This document shows positions 3,111 through 16,538 of a stretch of DNA of 58,120 nucleotides, piece after piece. Source of the stretch: an uncultured Marinomonas sp. GTDB taxonomy: Bacteria; Pseudomonadota; Gammaproteobacteria; Pseudomonadales; Marinomonadaceae. Where the stretch lies: positions 1 to 58,120 of the forward strand of contig CALLIL010000036.1 in the NCBI GenBank assembly GCA_938009755.1, written 5' to 3'. Numbering within the stretch: position 1 is the stretch's first letter; each line of letters starts with the position of its first letter. The position numbers and the translations under genes are program-made. Under the pieces are notes generated by a model. That model had not been told where the DNA came from and made no database searches. It saw only the letters and a program-made list of their open reading frames with translations.

Positions 3111-4370
3111 ATGACATTGCACCGAGATTTCAGATTATTCGTGGATAATCTAAAAATTAAGAACAAAGACAAAATTTCGAGTCGCTATGGAAGCATTACG
3201 AAGAATCTAAATGAAAAATTTAGAGATTTACCTAACGACAAGACAAATTATAGCCTTCAAGCAGGATCGTATGGTCGTTACTCAGGTATTCATGGTATCT
3301 CAGATCTAGATATGCTTTACATCATCCCACCTTACAAGTGGATTACTTACCGAAATGATCCGTCTAAGGCTCTCGACCATGCCAAGATGGCGATACAAAA
3401 GACCTATCCAACCAGTTCTGTACGAAAAGACCGCAATGTAGTGGTTGTTGAGATGCAGGATTTTACCTTTGAAATAGTTCCTGTGTTCGAGTGGAAAGGC
3501 ATATTCAAATACCCTGATACCCACAATGGTGGAAAATGGCGCACGTGCAATACACGTGCAGAGCTAAAAGCATTCAAAGATTTGAACAGTCAGCGCAATG
3601 ACAACCTTCGTAAGCTTGCAAAAATGATTCGTGCTTGGAAAGTTAGAAATAACGTAGAAATGAGTGGTTTCCTTATAGACACTCTCTGCTATCGCTTTTT
3701 CGAGAAGAATACCGATTACGATCAGGTAAGTTTCGGTGGCTTTGACAAGATGGTGAAAGACTTCTTCGAATTCCTATTTAAAGAACCTAATAGAAGTTTC
3801 TACTATGCCTTTGGTAGTAACTCCAAGGTCAGTGTATATCAACCTTTCCAAAAGGCTGCTGAGAGCGCTCTGAAGTCAGCTAAGTCAGCAATTGAAGCGA
3901 GAGCTAAGGGACAAGAAGCAAAGTGCAACCAGCACTATAAGTCAATCTTTGGAACAAAGTTCCCTAACCAAGAGGTGAAACAGATAGGGGGATCGCAAGA
4001 ACAGTTCATTGAAGACCTATTCGACTTGAATTTGACCAATCAGATTGAAATAGATTGTGAGATTAAAAAGGACCTGATGACTCAGCTACTATCAAGATTT
4101 GGCAGTGGCCGTATACAGCCTCAACGCGAACTGCATTTCTTTGTGAAGGGCTCGAACATTGTCGGAGACTACAAAGTAAAATGGAAGGTTCGTAATTATG
4201 GACATGAAGCGGATAAACGAAAGAACCACCGCGGAGAAATTATGGATGATGATGGTAGCAAAACAAGGAGAGAAACAGCATCTTTCTATGGAGATCATAC
4301 GGTCGAGTGTTACGCTATTCATAGAAACACGGTGATTGCACGACATAAAATCACCGTACCAATCGAGTAG
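3111..4370 (+). CDS. CBASS cyclic oligonucleotide synthase (CD-NTase, SMODS plus AGS-C)
   Basis: Signal-generating enzyme of a CBASS-type anti-phage system, expected to make a cyclic di- or oligonucleotide when infection is sensed. The nucleotidyltransferase motif is clear: AGSYGRY at 51-57 and SDLDML at 64-69, giving metal ligands D65 and D67, with the third acidic ligand probably E121 in FTFEIVPVFE. Residues 338-419 (LHFFVKGSN, VKWKVRNYG, ending HKITVPIE) match the AGS-C sensor domain known at the C-terminus of SMODS proteins. Length 419 is normal. GGGGA lies about ten bases upstream of the ATG. The effector follows after 12 bases. No HORMA, TRIP13, E1/E2 or JAB gene is nearby, so this is a type I-like minimal arrangement. 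The nucleotide product cannot be predicted. Confidence 0.9.
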   Translation: MTLHRDFRLFVDNLKIKNKDKISSRYGSITKNLNEKFRDLPNDKTNYSLQAGSYGRYSGIHGISDLDMLYIIPPYKWITYRNDPSKALDHAKMAIQKTYPTSSVRKDRNVVVVEMQDFTFEIVPVFEWKGIFKYPDTHNGGKWRTCNTRAELKAFKDLNSQRNDNLRKLAKMIRAWKVRNNVEMSGFLIDTLCYRFFEKNTDYDQVSFGGFDKMVKDFFEFLFKEPNRSFYYAFGSNSKVSVYQPFQKAAESALKSAKSAIEARAKGQEAKCNQHYKSIFGTKFPNQEVKQIGGSQEQFIEDLFDLNLTNQIEIDCEIKKDLMTQLLSRFGSGRIQPQRELHFFVKGSNIVGDYKVKWKVRNYGHEADKRKNHRGEIMDDDGSKTRRETASFYGDHTVECYAIHRNTVIARHKITVPIE

Positions 4371-4382
4371 GAACGATAGTTT

Positions 4383-5093
4383 ATGACGGAACAGGCGATT
4401 AAAAAGCAAGTGGCAAGGGAATATTACAATGTACTCTATGGCGCCAAACTTCATCTTGCGTCATACGATATTTGCGAGAAAGTACCTACAGCAATTAGCA
4501 TGATATCGCTTTCATTTGGTGTACTCGGGTTGTCTTTCTCACAGTTGAACAGTAATTCGCTGGCTTCTTTATTGCTGATTATCGGTATCATCGGCATTAT
4601 CCTCAAGCCAAGGGAGCTTCAGAAAGAGCAATATAAGGCTATTGGTGGAAGTCTAACTGATATTAGTAAGAAATTAGAGGACGTATATTGCCAAATTGAT
4701 GAACAGGATATTGATTCCGTTCATCAGGCTCGCACAGACCTAAAAATAATTCGAGGAGATCATAGCTCCGTTGTTATGTTATCTCCTGTTTTTCTGTCGT
4801 CATGGTATGCACACTATAAATTGTTTTCTGAGCACAATAGTGACTGGATGTGCTCAGAGTTAGCTTTAGACTGGAAGGATAAAATCCCTTTCAGCTTAAG
4901 AATTACTGTTGTAGTGCTATTGGCCGCAGCTGTACTATGGGCAGACCCACTTTGCATGGCTACTAAGAGTTGGGCATGGTTTTCTGAGCCGTGTGTCGGA
5001 TGCTGGCAAAACATTTCAGATTCTAGTCAGGCAATTACTCCAACAACTGAAGCAATTCCTGATACAAAACCTAATTATGGGGCTACCAAATAA
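4383..5093 (+). CDS. SLATT-family transmembrane CBASS effector
   Basis: A 236-residue membrane protein immediately downstream of the CD-NTase. A short cytosolic N-terminus (residues 1-35) precedes a hydrophobic hairpin (about 36-54 and 58-75), then a helical cytosolic region (about 78-165). This is the layout of SLATT domains, which pair with SMODS synthases and are thought to open membrane pores on binding the second messenger. Unusually, a third hydrophobic segment (about 171-188) follows, and the tail carries three cysteines (one after the segment, then CVGC). Assignment rests on topology and context, since SLATT sequences diverge strongly. Transcription continues from the synthase gene. 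Confidence 0.75.
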   Translation: MTEQAIKKQVAREYYNVLYGAKLHLASYDICEKVPTAISMISLSFGVLGLSFSQLNSNSLASLLLIIGIIGIILKPRELQKEQYKAIGGSLTDISKKLEDVYCQIDEQDIDSVHQARTDLKIIRGDHSSVVMLSPVFLSSWYAHYKLFSEHNSDWMCSELALDWKDKIPFSLRITVVVLLAAAVLWADPLCMATKSWAWFSEPCVGCWQNISDSSQAITPTTEAIPDTKPNYGATK

Positions 5094-5151
5094 CAATAAG
5101 ATAGCGAGAGAAGAATCTTTTTTTGAATAAAGCTTTCACCCGAACCATATT

Positions 5152-5172
5152 GGTGGCATAAAAGGTGGCATA
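5152..5172 (+). repeat. Direct repeat GGTGGCATA x2
   Basis: GGTGGCATA occurs at 5152-5160 and 5164-5172, 12 bases apart, just before an A/T run in the 446-base gap after the SLATT gene. Short iterated sites of this sort occur as integrase arm-type sites near island ends, but no integrase gene or tRNA is visible here. The rest of the gap up to 5358 shows nothing recognisable apart from AT-rich sequence. Confidence 0.35.
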
Positions 5173-5357
5173 TTTTTTAATTTTTTTAAAAAATCTATAC
5201 AATTCAAAAACTTAACAGTTAAATTTGTATTCAGATTCAGAATATTGAGTGATTTCAAATAAGAAGTTTGATTCAAAAATATTGCGGTATACCTTGATGT
5301 ATTAATATACCTTTGACTACAATCACATCAAATGGATTGGGAGTGCCCGATCGGCGT

Positions 5358-5501
5358 CTAAACCTCGGTGAGTGCATCGGGGTTTTTCGCTATCTGAGGT
5401 CTGATAAATTCCAACGCAGCTTTCTTTTTTAAGAAACCAATGGCTAGCTTTACATACTTCGTCCTAATGAAAGACAAATCAATTGTTTGTTTTTCATTAA
5501 T
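5358..5501 (-). pseudogene. Relic: C-terminal end of a second SIR2-type defence protein
   Basis: On the reverse strand the codons between in-frame stops read as a homologue of the last 55 or so residues of the intact SIR2 protein encoded at 6311-9796. The relic has INEKQTIDLSFIRTKYVK where the intact protein has SNEIQIANIPLVRAECVK; both continue LAIG-[FL]-LK, and both end with an AK...L-x-EV pattern. The DNA also matches: AACCAAT-R-GCTAGCTTTACA-Y-AC is present in both copies. The N-terminal 1100 residues are missing and a stop lies directly upstream, so only a remnant remains. It sits just beyond the toxin-antitoxin pair. Confidence 0.7.
5361..5387 (+). terminator. Possible intrinsic terminator after the CBASS operon
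   Basis: AACCTCG and CGGGGTT (with one G-T pair) flank a ten-base loop and are followed by TTTTT (5383-5387). It could end forward transcripts from the CBASS operon 270 bases upstream. The same bases encode the last residues of the SIR2 relic on the other strand, so the structure may be coincidental. Confidence 0.4.
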
Positions 5502-5539
5502 TTAACACTGACCTGATTTATCACTATTTACATTTGCTT

Positions 5540-5881
5540 CTACAAAACCAGCATAATTTCATAAAGTAGCTGCTCAATACTTTGACGGCTATCCATCACT
5601 ACAATCAACACAACCTTTTCCTCTTGCTCATCCACTCGATAAAAAACAAGGTTATGCTGGCCTACTTGCATTTGTCGATAATTCATAAAGCCTAGTGCAG
5701 ATAATCGATCACTAACAGGGGAAGAAAAAGGCTGGTCACTCAAAGCCAAGACTTTTTGCTTAATGAGCCTTTTAGCTTCATCAGCAACAACGGTATTATG
5801 CTTTCGGGTTAGGAATGTAGAGAGTTTTTTAAGGGTCGTTTTAAAAGCTGGCGTAGCAACAACTTGGAAGGGTTTAGACAT
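5540..5881 (-). CDS. RelE/ParE-family toxin
   Basis: Toxin of a type II toxin-antitoxin pair, 113 residues from the ATG at 5881. The start MSKPFQV overlaps the antitoxin stop codon (ATGTCTAA). The fold pattern fits RelE/ParE: an N-terminal strand, two helices rich in lysine and arginine (residues 10-45), then strands GFMNYRQMQVG, HNLVFYRVD and EKVVLIVVMDSR. Members either cleave mRNA at the ribosome or poison gyrase; the sequence alone does not separate the two. It forms one reverse-strand operon with the Phd-like antitoxin. The alternative start four codons upstream is less likely. Confidence 0.8.
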   Translation of the reverse strand: MSKPFQVVATPAFKTTLKKLSTFLTRKHNTVVADEAKRLIKQKVLALSDQPFSSPVSDRLSALGFMNYRQMQVGQHNLVFYRVDEQEEKVVLIVVMDSRQSIEQLLYEIMLVL

Positions 5882-6098
5882 CAAATGCCTCATCCAAGGA
5901 TAACTCGCCTTTTTGATTCAAACTGCGCTCAGAAAGATTGATTAATTTAAGCAGCGCTATCGTTTCTTGCTGCTCATAATAAGCTTGAGAATCCTGTACT
6001 ACATACACCTCTTTCCCATTCTGAGTAACATGCAAAGGATCATCTAGCGACAAATTATTGGCATTTGCTTTCAGGTATGACACGGTTTCAACATTCAT
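5874..6098 (-). CDS. Phd/YefM-family antitoxin
   Basis: A 74-residue antitoxin that should bind and neutralise the downstream toxin and repress its own promoter. The start at 6098 (MNVETVSYLK) has GGAGG five bases upstream, favouring it over the ATG ten codons earlier. The N-terminal half has the usual Phd/YefM pattern: a short helix, then DPLHVTQNGKEVYVV, in which the T-x-N-G-x-x turn is typical of the dimeric DNA-binding domain. The C-terminal part is acidic and probably wraps the toxin. The stop overlaps the toxin start, as expected for coupled translation. Confidence 0.85.
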   Translation of the reverse strand: MNVETVSYLKANANNLSLDDPLHVTQNGKEVYVVQDSQAYYEQQETIALLKLINLSERSLNQKGELSLDEAFDV

Positions 6099-6310
6099 AA
6101 AGCCTCCAGTGGTCCAAATATAAACCAATTATAGACTAACATTTAACCTCTATGCACATTTTTCATTATCTTCGAGACTGGTCAATTTTACTTAATGATT
6201 TTTTGCCATTGCTTCACTATAAACAGAGCAACTGACTCAAATTAATCCAACTCTGACATGATTTATTTGAACTCCAAGTATGTAACTAGCACAGGAGAAG
6301 TCACAAAAAT

Positions 6311-9300
6311 TTATTGCTCAGCAGCAAACCTTACTTCTGGTAGTGGGTCTGTTTTTGCTTCTTCAATAATTCTCTTCAAATGGAGGTCGCTTTCCTTGTC
6401 GTCATCCATTTTCAATAAACCAATAGCTAGCTTTACACACTCTGCTCTAACAAGAGGGATATTTGCGATTTGAATTTCATTTGAAAAGTCTTGACTATAA
6501 CTCATGCTATCAAAAACTCTTGGAGCACTATCACAAAGGATTAGAGAATCTATTTCTGAAAGATAACCTTTAGATAACATGCTATTAACAGCCCAAAGAA
6601 GGCGATACATATTAGACGTTTGATTATAGCTAATCATAGTCACAATCAGGGGAATAAGTCTTTTTACCGCATCACTGTTTTCTAATTCACGCCACTTCAA
6701 AATAGCAATTGCAGCTTGACTCACGAAATGATGATCCGAGTCTAACAAACTATTTCTTAAAAGGTTCTCTACAATATAGACCTTCTCTTCTAGAGCTTCC
6801 GCGAAATAAGGAAACGCAATCAAGGAAGCAGGCAATTTAGTATCTTTAAAAAAGGAAAAGAGCTCTTCAAAATTATCTTCGTTTAGATCTGTTTGTGCCA
6901 ATGCAGGCATAACAGAATAAGAAAGCGCTTGAGCAATGTACGAATAATTTGAACGATCATCTCGATGCGAACTCATTGTACTCTGTTCACTAAATGGCTT
7001 AGGTCTCCAATTCACTAGAGTACTGAAATAGTGTTTTGCTTCTTTCTCATTAGGTAATTGTCGAATGCTTTTAACTTGTGCTGCACTGATAATATTAACA
7101 AGCCTATTTTTATTAAACAGCTGCTTTTGATCCGCTTTAAACAGATAGTCTCTTACAAGTTTTTTAGTATGTTCCTGATTATTTGACGGTAGTAGTAAAA
7201 AGACCCAGCTATATAAGTTTCCCATATTAGGTAAAACATTCGGGTGATCATCAGTTCCCCAAATCTTTCTAGTAAGTTGTTCTAACTCCGATTGAGTCAA
7301 AAAGCCATGTTCGATCAAAAGCAAAAGACGCTCTAAAGATGAGCCTTTTGATTCAGCATTAGATACGCTTTCAATTAACCAGTTCACTCTTTTATCTAAC
7401 TCTAAATCAGGCTTCCTTTGGCCTACATGTTTAATTGTTGGATTCGGCCAACCATGAAGTGACCTTCCTTGAAGTTCTGTCACAATCGGAAACTCTAATG
7501 TTTTTGACAATAAATTTTGATGGTCTGATGTAGGTATACTTTCCAAAGAATACTCAATCAAATGATCAATAGAGTCCCTTAACCAAAGGTGTTGCATCTC
7601 TTTTTGATTACCCATCTCTAAAGCATAAAGATACAGCTGTTTTGCTTTTTCTGGTGCTGCGCGCACCGAGACCCGAGCTAAGACTTCAATAAACAGTCTC
7701 AACTTTGTTAATACTGAAGCATTGCGCTTTTCAGGTATCAGCAAGCTTTTACGCCAGTAGGCGACGGCTCTTTCACATTGTAAAATCAAATCATCACTCT
7801 CACTCTGTGAAAGAGAAGCAATTCTTAAACGTGAAAATACGTAATCTATTTCGTCTTCTTTTTCAGAATTCACATAACGAGCCAGTAATGGAAAATATTC
7901 ATCTTTAGAAGTATCGTCTAAGTAGATAAGATCCTGTGCAAGTCCTGTCATGAAACCAGTATAATCCCACCGAACAGGAACCCCTGTAGAAAACAATATT
8001 CCATGAAAAATATAAAATGGATGAACTCGATTATAAAAAGTCGTGTTGTCCGAATTATCTCTGTAGGTTCCTGGAGTAAAGAATACTTTGATTCCTTGAT
8101 CCTTCTTTTTATTGTCTATCAAATCCCGCATTGTTTTTCGTAATTCATCGATTTGATCCCATAATTCGCAGTATTTTTCACTTCCACTCTCAACTGTTTT
8201 TTTCTTAAATTCATGAGTGGTTACACGCTGAATTGTCTCCGCCACTTTCAATCGAGATAAAATATATATGGAATTTGGATCTCTACGATGCTGACTCAAT
8301 AAATCCTTATAAGCTTCAGAAATTAAGATATTTCCTTCGCTAAATAACCCCAGCTCACCAAGTAACGCAGCTTTACGAAGTTTGTTGATAGGCTCATTCG
8401 GAGCCATATTTTTCACAAGGCTTTCTAATTTTTCATAGTCAAATTGGTATAGAGCCAACGATGCTTTAAAAAATACAATCTCTTCTAAAGCGTCAGGCCA
8501 ATATTGGCTATTACTCTCGATAATAGTAATAACCTCTTTTTCTAAAATTTCGCTTTCTTCTTCCCCCAACCATCGAGTATTTTTCAATACATAAACAGCA
8601 ATCTCCAACTGTTGCTTCTTTGTAAGAATATTGGGTTTCGATGGGTCACATACTTGAAACATCTCTTGAATAAGCCACTTTAGCGAAACTTCATAAGTAC
8701 GCTCATATTGCCAAACGATTTCGTACAGTATTTCTGCTCGAACTTCCTCGGATAATGCCATTAGCCTTACTTTGTCTACAGAAAACTGTAATTTCGATTG
8801 TAAATGTGAAGGGAGGATTAACCATCCGGGATATGTTTCACGGTTCTTCTTAAGTGTTGTTAAGCTCTCTTCCAACGATAATTTTCTATCTAAATTCGAA
8901 TGTCGCCATTCCCACGGCTTTTTAGGCTCTAACTCTTTTAATGCTGCTAAAAAATATTCAGTTGCCTTTTTATGTTTTAAGTCATGGTCGTAATCCGATA
9001 CAAGAGGCTCAAGATCAATTGGAGAAATATTAATAGACTCCAAATATTTTCGTTTTGCTACAGTTAAGTCGAGAGCTCCTACCAGATAAATACGCCTTGC
9101 ATTAGATGCTAAGTGATCCCGTACCCATCCAGTCCATTGTAAAAAATTTGGGTCATCTCCTGAGAACCCCACTAGACAGAGCTCATTCTCTATAAACACT
9201 TGGCGGGCGAAATTAACAAATGCGGCATGTTTTTGTGGGTATGTTCGATAGTCCTCTTGAGTAAATATCAGCTCATTAGTTACATTTAAGGTGCCATGTA

Positions 9301-9796
9301 ATTTCACTATCCTAGGGGAATATTCGCTAGATAACTGCTCTTGACGATTTACGACACCATAAAAGCGACCATGTGCTTTTTCCGATGCCTTTTCTAGCAA
9401 TGTATCCCAATTAGTCGTGAGAACTTCTGACCAAGGCAGCTCTAATAATTGATTATGAAGGTCACTTGGCTCCCAAGCGGCATCATTCACCTCCTTTTTT
9501 AAAAGGTCATCAAGCGCTTGCCTTCCGAAATAAGCAGAATATTCTTCTGCAATTCGAAGAGGATCGGAATCACTAGAATTCAGTTCTTTTTTTAAAACCT
9601 TCGACAAATCAAACCACAGTGGAAGCTTTTTTGATTTATCTCCTGTCACTCCAGCACATCGACTAAACCCAGCGCCAACCATGACAGCAGCACCGTGATA
9701 AGCATTATCTTTCTGCCAGAGCACAGAGGCAAAACGTTCAAGAGTAGGGTAATCAGGAAGTGTTTTTAATGAATTCAGTATTGATTCTGCTGGCAT
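6311..9796 (-). CDS. SIR2-domain anti-phage protein, DSR-like
   Basis: A 1161-residue protein with an N-terminal SIR2 NAD-binding domain (about 35-270): GAGFSR at 41-46, TTNWD at 127-131, KLHGT at 165-169 and GFSGDDPNF at 210-218. The candidate catalytic pair N129 and H167 is 38 residues apart, the spacing I recall for N133/H171 of DSR2. The remaining 890 residues are alpha-helical and repeat-like, without a visible P-loop, which fits the defence-associated sirtuins (DSR) rather than Avs5-type STAND proteins. Such proteins deplete NAD when a phage protein is sensed. AGGGA lies six bases upstream of the ATG. Its C-terminus has a decayed paralogue at 5358-5501. The trigger cannot be predicted. 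Confidence 0.8.
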   Translation of the reverse strand: MPAESILNSLKTLPDYPTLERFASVLWQKDNAYHGAAVMVGAGFSRCAGVTGDKSKKLPLWFDLSKVLKKELNSSDSDPLRIAEEYSAYFGRQALDDLLKKEVNDAAWEPSDLHNQLLELPWSEVLTTNWDTLLEKASEKAHGRFYGVVNRQEQLSSEYSPRIVKLHGTLNVTNELIFTQEDYRTYPQKHAAFVNFARQVFIENELCLVGFSGDDPNFLQWTGWVRDHLASNARRIYLVGALDLTVAKRKYLESINISPIDLEPLVSDYDHDLKHKKATEYFLAALKELEPKKPWEWRHSNLDRKLSLEESLTTLKKNRETYPGWLILPSHLQSKLQFSVDKVRLMALSEEVRAEILYEIVWQYERTYEVSLKWLIQEMFQVCDPSKPNILTKKQQLEIAVYVLKNTRWLGEEESEILEKEVITIIESNSQYWPDALEEIVFFKASLALYQFDYEKLESLVKNMAPNEPINKLRKAALLGELGLFSEGNILISEAYKDLLSQHRRDPNSIYILSRLKVAETIQRVTTHEFKKKTVESGSEKYCELWDQIDELRKTMRDLIDNKKKDQGIKVFFTPGTYRDNSDNTTFYNRVHPFYIFHGILFSTGVPVRWDYTGFMTGLAQDLIYLDDTSKDEYFPLLARYVNSEKEDEIDYVFSRLRIASLSQSESDDLILQCERAVAYWRKSLLIPEKRNASVLTKLRLFIEVLARVSVRAAPEKAKQLYLYALEMGNQKEMQHLWLRDSIDHLIEYSLESIPTSDHQNLLSKTLEFPIVTELQGRSLHGWPNPTIKHVGQRKPDLELDKRVNWLIESVSNAESKGSSLERLLLLIEHGFLTQSELEQLTRKIWGTDDHPNVLPNMGNLYSWVFLLLPSNNQEHTKKLVRDYLFKADQKQLFNKNRLVNIISAAQVKSIRQLPNEKEAKHYFSTLVNWRPKPFSEQSTMSSHRDDRSNYSYIAQALSYSVMPALAQTDLNEDNFEELFSFFKDTKLPASLIAFPYFAEALEEKVYIVENLLRNSLLDSDHHFVSQAAIAILKWRELENSDAVKRLIPLIVTMISYNQTSNMYRLLWAVNSMLSKGYLSEIDSLILCDSAPRVFDSMSYSQDFSNEIQIANIPLVRAECVKLAIGLLKMDDDKESDLHLKRIIEEAKTDPLPEVRFAAEQ

Positions 9797-10025
9797 AGTA
9801 GTCCCTTATCAGCTTGGTATAGTCATACACATAGTCAGCCATGAACCTCTATAAATCAAATATCAAACTTAGTTTTAGCATTCTTAATGCTTGGAGGGGT
9901 TATAGAGTGCCCTTGCGCTCGACCTAACTCGCTTAAGCCCATATTCAATTACAACAAGAGTACCGCCATATTTTGAACGATTTTTGGCGAGCTAGTGGTC
10001 TATAAGCCCTATAGTTAATCAATTA

Positions 10026-10322
10026 AAAAACCAACCTACGCGCAAACCTTTATTGATCGATGGGGCTAGGCAAACAGGTAAAGCGTGTCTGTTACAAGCT
10101 CTGTTTGGCAGCACTTTTGCCAACGTCCTTCGTATCGACTTTCTGGAAAACCCTGATTACAAAGTGGCTTTCGATGGTTCACTGTCGCCAGATGAGTTGC
10201 TCATAAAACGATACTCGCCAAGCAAGACCTTCAAACTCACAGGTACGCAAGGCTCCTCAGTACTAGAACACACCCATATTGTGATGCCATTATATTTCAC
10301 ACCGTATTTACCACTGAGATGA
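10026..10322 (+). pseudogene. Relic of an AAA/DUF4143 ATPase with internal deletion
   Basis: The frame reads TRKPLLIDGARQTGKACLLQ, matching the N-terminal Walker A region of AAA-DUF4143 ATPases (usual form P-L-L-I-x-G-A-R-Q-x-G-K-T); the final threonine is alanine here. FANVLRIDFLENPDYK follows as expected. After about 55 codons the frame passes to RYSPSKTFKLTG and then IVMPLYFTPYLPL, which resembles the C-terminal tail of the family. The middle, with Walker B and the DUF4143 domain, is missing (99 codons against about 400). There is no proper start codon. Confidence 0.6.
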
Positions 10323-10498
10323 TAAAAACCTCTTTATAAAAACTCTGCATTTCGAGCGGCTGGTTTTCGTCGGGCTTATTGGTTTTGTCGCTTTAACTTC
10401 TGAATTATGTGGTTAAATGAGGGAATATACGTACATTTTATGGCTTAATCGGTTAATATCTAGTCACTCAATTTTTCATTCTTCATGGACAGTAATAC

Positions 10499-15914: not shown

Positions 15915-16538
15915 ATGGACACACAAAAAGGCAACTTATTCATTTTGTCTGCGCCTTCTGGAGCAGGGAAATCGACTTTATACAAAGCACTATTGAAGCA
16001 AGATGACCAGGTGCGTATTTCGGTTTCTCATACAACAAGAGCACCAAGAGAAGGCGAAGAAAATGGGCGTGAATATTTTTTCATAGACCCAGATTCTTTC
16101 CTCGATATGATTGCTGAAGATGCTTTTTTTGAGCACGCGCAAGTGTTTGATAATTATTACGGCACATCAAAAGCGTCTATCTTTACTATGTTAGAGCAAG
16201 GATTAGACGTCATTTTAGAAATTGATTGGCAAGGTGCTCGTCAAGTTCGACATCTCTACCCGGATGCAATCGGAATTTTCATTTTACCGCCATCATTGAG
16301 TGCATTAGAAACGCGCCTTAAAGGTCGCGCAACAGACTCAGAAGAGGTCATCCAAAGAAGAATGGCGAAAGCCGTCGATGAAATGTCCCATTACGATGAG
16401 TATGATTTTGTCATCGTCAACGATGATTTTGATGACGCACTCTCTCAAATGGCTTCTGTTTTTCAGGCAATGCGAACAAAAACAGCGTTAATACAGCAAA
16501 AACATGGCAATCTTATAAATGATCTCTTGTCATTATAA
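15915..16538 (+). CDS. gmk: Guanylate kinase
   Basis: Phosphorylates GMP to GDP with ATP in the cytosol, feeding GTP, dGTP and (p)ppGpp pools. The P-loop APSGAGKS (13-20) is at the N-terminus, followed by the GMP-binding part SHTTRAPREGEENGREYFF and the lid region around RLKGRATDSEEVIQRR. Length 207 residues is standard. It begins the gmk-rpoZ-spoT-ridA cluster, a conserved gammaproteobacterial arrangement. No strong Shine-Dalgarno is seen before the ATG. Confidence 0.97.
   Translation: MDTQKGNLFILSAPSGAGKSTLYKALLKQDDQVRISVSHTTRAPREGEENGREYFFIDPDSFLDMIAEDAFFEHAQVFDNYYGTSKASIFTMLEQGLDVILEIDWQGARQVRHLYPDAIGIFILPPSLSALETRLKGRATDSEEVIQRRMAKAVDEMSHYDEYDFVIVNDDFDDALSQMASVFQAMRTKTALIQQKHGNLINDLLSL

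Follow-up and report, generated by a model that had tools for sequence, protein, structure and literature searches.

The window analysed here is a stretch of 58,120 nucleotides, contig CALLIL010000036.1 of an uncultured Marinomonas sp. Its left part holds a dense series of defence-type genes and remnants (Table 1). From left to right, two CBASS genes are followed by a short copy of the yicC 3' end, a putative small-RNA gene with a promoter-like site, a truncated Dsr2-like stretch, a toxin-antitoxin pair, a complete Dsr2 homologue and the remnant of an ATPase-like gene.

Table 1. Features of the locus and their positions in the window.
Feature	Position	Strand	Evidence
CBASS: cyclase (3111-4370) and 2TM SLATT_6 effector (4383-5093)	3111-5093	+	cargo adjoining the attachment repeat
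22-bp copy of the yicC 3' end; attachment-type repeat, right end of the CBASS island	5232-5253	+	repeat of the yicC end
Promoter-like site of the RNA, TTGATG-18 nt-TACAAT (9/12)	5294-5323	+	fixed place across RNA copies
Putative small-RNA gene, 70 nt, hairpins 5335-5352 and 5360-5385	5329-5398	+	conservation, fold, model 89.6 bits
Junction; possibly last codons of a lost DUF3800 gene	5399-5420	-	weak similarity
Relic of a Dsr2-like gene, 26-28 codons	5415-5498	-	protein, DNA and profile matches; truncated on both sides
ParE-type toxin	5540-5893	-	Pfam PF05016, 34.1 bits (cut-off 23)
Phd/YefM-type antitoxin	5874-6098	-	Pfam PF02604, 25.8 bits (short of the cut-off of 29.8); conserved beside the toxin in relatives
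Intact Dsr2 homologue, 1161 aa, SIR2 domain, Asn129/His167	6311-9796	-	PADLOC, Pfam, alignment
AAA ATPase-like gene remnant with internal deletion	10026-10328	+	blocks 10026-10196 and 10218-10328

The product of the intact gene matched the PADLOC Dsr2 profile over residues 17-1137 (E = 1.2e-135), and a SIR2_2 domain was assigned by Pfam to its N-terminus (E = 8.8e-22). At the sequence level, the SIR2-like chains 8wkt and 8k98, which we take to be DSR2 structures, matched it only over residues 70-272. Residues N129 and H167 were invariant in an alignment of three proteins. The protein thus resembles DSR2 in its N-terminal domain, in the full-length profile match and in the kept active-site Asn/His, given as N133/H171 for the Bacillus subtilis enzyme (PMC11087589). 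It differs in its sequence, since identity to the full-length Dsr2 genes kept for comparison was at most 47%, and 50% was found over part of one match at a contig end. By analogy with its family, the protein would deplete NAD upon sensing a phage tail-tube protein.

Only one copy of this gene was detected in the window's genome. No other homologue was detected in the 47 other genomes of the genus (E up to 1e-30), five of which gave weak SIR2-domain matches, nor in 389 genomes of the order and 368 of the class (E up to 1e-40; the two samples overlap). A search of named genomes with the single protein returned no relative, whereas an alignment search did: 294 Dsr2 relatives were confirmed and 80 were kept. 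In Luteibacter (L138; 1176-7579 and 9230-11543) a second, different SIR2_2 gene (839 aa) stands in tandem with Dsr2. This Luteibacter Dsr2 lies near yicC and a related tyrosine integrase, so that Dsr2 occupies a comparable site in a different lineage.

The region of the toxin-antitoxin pair (5539-6136) was found in 10 of 48 genomes of the genus, the window's own included. In 8 of the 9 other carriers the pair lies within 8 kb of yicC, and in the remaining one (G015) on another contig. None of these nine has a Dsr2 homologue (E up to 1e-30). Because the pair sits at the same hotspot in relatives devoid of Dsr2, it has a history here without that gene. The flank on the antitoxin side is alike in seven of the nine relatives, and the window differs from all nine on both sides. 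Both genes are whole at the DNA level in 6 of the 10 genomes, and the toxin is broken or missing in 4. Loci at which ParE is broken or missing and the antitoxin persists at the hotspot are L073 (11076-11488), L087 (7848-8241), L067 (11498-11785) and L077 (1656-1889). A 26-bp direct repeat surrounds the pair (5498-5523 and 6241-6266, 22/26 positions matching; reached by 18 of 2000 shuffles). Its two copies were considered as terminal repeats of the pair and rejected, as among the nine relatives only L072 and L222 have a similar sequence (4 mismatches), on the ParE side alone.

All these features lie at a yicC-gmk integration site. The yicC gene of the same genome ends at 9264-9284 of contig 18 (G000; L053), where a tyrosine integrase adjoins it. 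Two marks of an island at yicC are present, the integrase next to the gene and, on the far side, a direct repeat of its 3' end. A degenerate pattern of the yicC 3' end was present in 42 of 48 genomes of the genus and doubled in four (G000, G001, G026 and G039); the reversed control pattern gave one hit, in G026. The content after yicC differs among these genomes, 7 of 41 stretches reaching gmk. In the window the variable zone extends from the repeat to gmk at 15915. The island that carries CBASS by its right end probably stops at 5253; its two ends lie on different contigs and presumably belong together. Genomic islands at yicC have been published for Shewanella (PMC8978831). The present site shares with islands of the yicC type the integrase adjoining that gene and the repetition of its 3' end. 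It differs in that CBASS is the cargo next to the repeat, with a second variable zone, containing Dsr2, between there and gmk. Upstream of the CBASS genes, 2165-2905 encodes a repressor-like protein with Mu DNA-binding and S24 peptidase domains. On the other side of the intact Dsr2 gene, the two blocks of the AAA remnant (Pfam AAA_14, 21.1 bits, under the cut-off of 27) are about 1 kb apart in five loci of the genus (L055, L057, L067, L078 and L092).

The minus strand of 5358-5501 reads as an open frame of 47 residues, INEKQTIDLSFIRTKYVKLAIGFLKKKAALEFIRPQIAKNPDALTEV, followed by a TAG stop. The frame was not taken for a gene because it opens directly after a stop and has no ATG. In a preliminary description it had been regarded as a homologue of about the last 55 residues of the SIR2 protein, a claim to be checked by translation and alignment against shuffled sequence. 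When residues 1-26 (about 5420-5498) were aligned with the last 60 residues of the intact protein, the score was 56; the shuffle maximum was 40, and none of 5000 shuffles reached the observed value. Expressed against shuffles, the match of the relic to Dsr2 has a z of about 9. Its counterpart is the stretch of residues 1106-1131 of the intact homologue. For the last 21 residues a score of 17 against the intact protein was obtained, with a shuffle mean of 18.5 and 3310 of 5000 shuffles reaching it. The claimed homology was therefore confirmed above every shuffle for the first 26 residues and fell to the shuffle level for the last 21.

The same stretch was recognised by two further comparisons. 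At the DNA level, the score of 5420-5509 with the intact gene was 170, compared with 118 for the highest-scoring of 2376 other 90-nt pieces, taken on both strands of the window outside 5350-9850. A profile was built from 70 Dsr2 tails with the intact protein of the window excluded (10 of the 80 were dropped because their match ends before residue 1120). Among 2310 six-frame segments of the window the fragment ranked second with this profile, behind the intact gene only (E = 0.0091), showing that its homology to the Dsr2 family holds independently of that gene. The profile alignment covers fragment residues 3-29 and then stops. Since the last 21 residues are at shuffle level and the profile ends at residue 29, the homology holds for 5415-5498 and fails for the rest; the 3' edge of the relic is placed only within about 5409-5425. 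By shuffles, DNA score and independent profile alike, the remnant of a second Dsr2-like sequence does flank the toxin-antitoxin pair opposite the intact gene, as had been proposed.

The relic is an internal 26-codon piece of a Dsr2-like gene and not a gene 3' end. It matches DSR2 in one internal stretch close to the C-terminus, but has no SIR2 domain, and the D-x-LPEVRF motif conserved at the Dsr2 C-terminus is absent from the whole fragment. The stop at 5358-5360, earlier described as the fragment's own, belongs to the foot of the second hairpin (5360-5385) of the small-RNA element. By eye, the fragment tail "AKNPDALTEV" looks like the family sequence "AKKDALPEV". Its reading as a Dsr2 C-terminus was rejected, as the score is near the shuffle mean and the sequence sits in an RNA hairpin that is conserved in genomes without Dsr2 (G001). 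The core of the relic was also compared with DUF3800 proteins and rejected as a part of one: it was near shuffle level in most of 12 loci, compared with a z of about 9 for Dsr2. Scores were borderline in L184 and L177, each reached by 3 of 200 shuffles, and that of L181 was reached by 17 of 200. The relic itself does nothing.

The remainder of the fragment shows no homology to Dsr2. Here 5329-5398 matches an element conserved in other genomes. The stretch 5325-5415 matched 17 other genomes among 381 of the order (18 with its own), in 14 of 138 genera, its own included, with one match per genome. Sixteen of these matches extend over 59-82 nt at 76-89% identity, and the seventeenth over 29 nt. 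Within the genus, the element was found in G001 only (E up to 0.01). It is also present in plasmids of alpha- and betaproteobacteria. With a query taken from locus L180, no match was obtained in 5,426 Escherichia coli genomes or in 50,697 phage records (E up to 0.01), and the RNA model R1, run on 44 of the 80 Dsr2 loci, gave nothing beyond two weak hits in L129 (E = 0.014).

The element was found once in each of 30 loci by a model built for it; these loci were picked because they hold the element, and 16 of them built the model. In the 30-locus alignment 98.4% of the cells pair and 8 pairs are changed on both sides (23 cells, compared with 6.0 in shuffles), a result favoured both by the fitting of this alignment to the model and by the relatedness of the sequences. 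When the 16 were aligned without such fitting, 2 of 22 pairs were changed on both sides. The promoter-like site of the window, taken alone, is a chance-level occurrence, as four such sites were counted in 5090-6400 and 4.0 were expected. It gains support because 18 of the 30 RNA copies have a sigma-70-like site of at least 9/12 at the same upstream place, where 0.8 would be expected. The hairpin is terminator-like by its fold and T run, and it was not flagged by the terminator scan, which found none. A simple terminator or a dispersed repeat was rejected as an explanation of the 70-nt element in view of the one match per genome, the fixed promoter-like site and the kept structure. The most probable identity of 5329-5398 is a small-RNA gene on the plus strand.

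In 18 of 23 other genome loci, a DUF3800 gene lies on the opposite strand with its 3' end running into the RNA. These 23 comprise 15 loci from the order, three order matches being left out, and 8 from a phylum search. The order part has the gene beside the RNA in 12 of 15 loci, in L178 by its last 32 residues only. In the phylum search 27 of 398 genomes matched the RNA at E up to 0.001, and 11, the window's own included, at E below 1e-8; two of the 10 other strong matches had been included before, and DUF3800 is present at 6 of the remaining 8. Among the 16 weaker phylum matches one, L204, also has it. On plasmids, DUF3800 was beside the RNA in all five loci examined, out of 33 matching records. 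The DUF3800 identity was assigned by Pfam for the G001 copy. This copy, together with its RNA, lies in what may be a Tn7-like defence cargo of G001 (L017, 7648-18534), a region that also holds TnsE- and TnsD-like genes, a PtuA-like ATPase and a type I specificity gene.

The other 5 of the 23 loci have no DUF3800 gene within 1.5 kb of the RNA; one is beside BrxC of a BREX system and one near restriction genes, the latter named by reading. No DUF3800 match was found in the window's own genome, which is 78% complete. Judged by sequence, the RNA of the window is an orphan copy of an RNA that is usually linked to DUF3800. At the junction, the minus strand of 5377-5418 reads CVGIYQTSDSEKPR, to be compared with GLKIFPSPDSEKPR in L180. 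The SEKPR part of this putative remnant is encoded within the conserved RNA, and outside it about 10 of 17 nt match. The bases adjoining the RNA may perhaps descend from the 3'-terminal codons of a DUF3800 gene since lost.

Eleven families of DUF3800-associated noncoding RNAs are known. They include the Rfam families DUF3800-I and DUF3800-IX (PMC11701678), and DUF3800 itself has been linked to putative noncoding RNAs and to a predicted RNase H fold (PMC10910872). The present RNA resembles them as a structured RNA adjoining a DUF3800 gene, in the proportions of genome and plasmid loci given above. It differs in that it reaches no Rfam cut-off: no family was found at the RNA site in 16 loci (E up to 1), and the Rfam DUF3800 families gave no match at E up to 1 in the same 16 and 12 further loci, 28 in all. 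It also differs in having its own promoter-like site and a convergent overlap with the gene 3' end, and in that the DUF3800 gene is gone from the window. Kinship with the BjrC68 sRNA (RF02353) was considered and rejected. Only two diverged copies, both among the 12 further loci, scored with that model (24.6 and 23.8 bits, gathering cut-off 39), the sequences look different, and none of the 12 BjrC68 matches found elsewhere, in 7 genomes and 7 of them over the cut-off, has DUF3800 in its 1.5-kb flanks.

A cognate RNA, perhaps an antidote, is our best guess for the role of the element. The 70-nt RNA and DUF3800 might form an unnamed two-part mobile system of Proteobacteria, in which the RNA would be made convergently at the 3' end of the gene. 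The RNA would then have outlived the protein here, and perhaps also in the five other loci without the gene within 1.5 kb, and may still be made, for instance as an antidote against incoming DUF3800 cassettes. This proposal is put forward tentatively.

With regard to the origin of the relic, 24 codons could be compared with the intact gene. They differ at 22 of 72 nt, with 10 of these changes at the third position of a codon, and half of the encoded residues (12 of 24) are the same. Among the residues that differ, 5 give the relic a better fit to the family than the intact protein has, and 7 a worse one. Summed over all 12, the relic reaches 3.4 bits compared with 18.6 bits for the intact protein; a conserved Cys, Ala and Leu are lost from it. 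When neutral decay of the intact gene was simulated, 175 of 5000 runs reached the family score of the relic. By this measure the relic may be closer to the Dsr2 family than most copies of the intact gene would be after neutral decay, which is suggestive only. We tend to favour a lost Dsr2 homologue distinct from the present gene over one copied from it, as a matter of preference and not of proof.

The scrap could instead be a decayed duplicate of the 3' end of the present Dsr2 gene, generated by insertion of the toxin-antitoxin pair or of Dsr2 itself. The relic and the intact protein share Ile-Gly after Leu-Ala ('AIG'), and since this Ile is found in none of the 70 other Dsr2 tails, the two are close to each other. 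Moreover, a 33-nt core of the relic and the intact gene is 88% identical, and random decay does reach the family score in the simulations mentioned above. Nevertheless, 22 of 72 nt differ, 10 of these changes fall at third positions, and the compared codons have all stayed open, whereas 48% of the simulated neutral decays gain a stop. The alignment of the two copies also begins at these codons and does not run into the flanks as a long target duplication predicts. We regard a duplicate as unlikely.

The preliminary description had proposed a recombination of the pair between two complete tandem Dsr2 genes, and the position of the pair between two same-strand Dsr2-like sequences agrees with it. 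Against this, a separate second Dsr2 C-terminus was found in none of the 80 Dsr2 loci, with flanks of up to 4 kb, some of them shorter. Other pieces seen in those loci were a second SIR2 domain in L159, a piece of probably the same gene in L152 and three further segments with E of 1.4-8.5. The pair itself is likewise present in none of the 80 loci (flanks up to 4 kb), and it occupies the hotspot in relatives without Dsr2. No relative with two Dsr2 genes was found in this set, and such a recombination is quite improbable. In view of the Dsr2-free history of the pair in the hotspot and of the 80 loci, neither model put forward earlier has been demonstrated: two SIR2 genes bracketing the pair stay unproven, and so does an entry of the pair into a duplicated gene.

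The genome is a draft of 122 contigs, 78% complete, and the junctions might be suspected to be assembly artefacts. The RNA, the pair and Dsr2 are each complete, and the relic is no stray copy of the intact gene, since 22 of its 72 compared nt are different, which makes an artefact very improbable. Chance similarity, for which the mere 26 codons could speak, is scarcely credible given the protein shuffles, the DNA comparison and the placement of the match, which is on the strand of the adjacent gene and second only to that gene with an independent profile.

The preferred reading is that of a separate, lost Dsr2 homologue, and on the whole the fragment is probably a composite fossil in an integration hotspot, made of a scrap of a second Dsr2-like gene and a DUF3800-linked RNA, the rest having been deleted or replaced. 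As we infer the order of events, a second Dsr2-like gene would once have stood beside a DUF3800 gene with its small RNA, or been fused to the tail of that gene, immediately right of the repeated yicC end. Both protein genes would later have been lost almost entirely by deletion and gene replacement, with 26 Dsr2-like codons surviving on one strand and an RNA gene that looks complete on the opposite one. Upstream of the scrap, the toxin-antitoxin pair and today's Dsr2 gene would have taken their places afterwards. The former DUF3800 gene at this place and the production of the RNA are to be taken in the same conditional sense.

At the yicC-gmk hotspot, where islands come together with a DUF3800-RNA cassette and a toxin-antitoxin pair that recurs, CBASS, toxin-antitoxin and Dsr2 genes have turned over. 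This turnover can be read from the Dsr2 scrap, which is in itself an ordinary case of it. The scrap also exposes a trap, in that an open frame with "its own stop" may consist of two joined parts that have nothing to do with each other. Of the features described, the RNA most deserves to be pursued. The tie of DUF3800 to putative RNAs was known already, but the RNA described here lies under all Rfam cut-offs. If it is expressed, it would offer a testable RNA partner for DUF3800, a protein family of unknown function.
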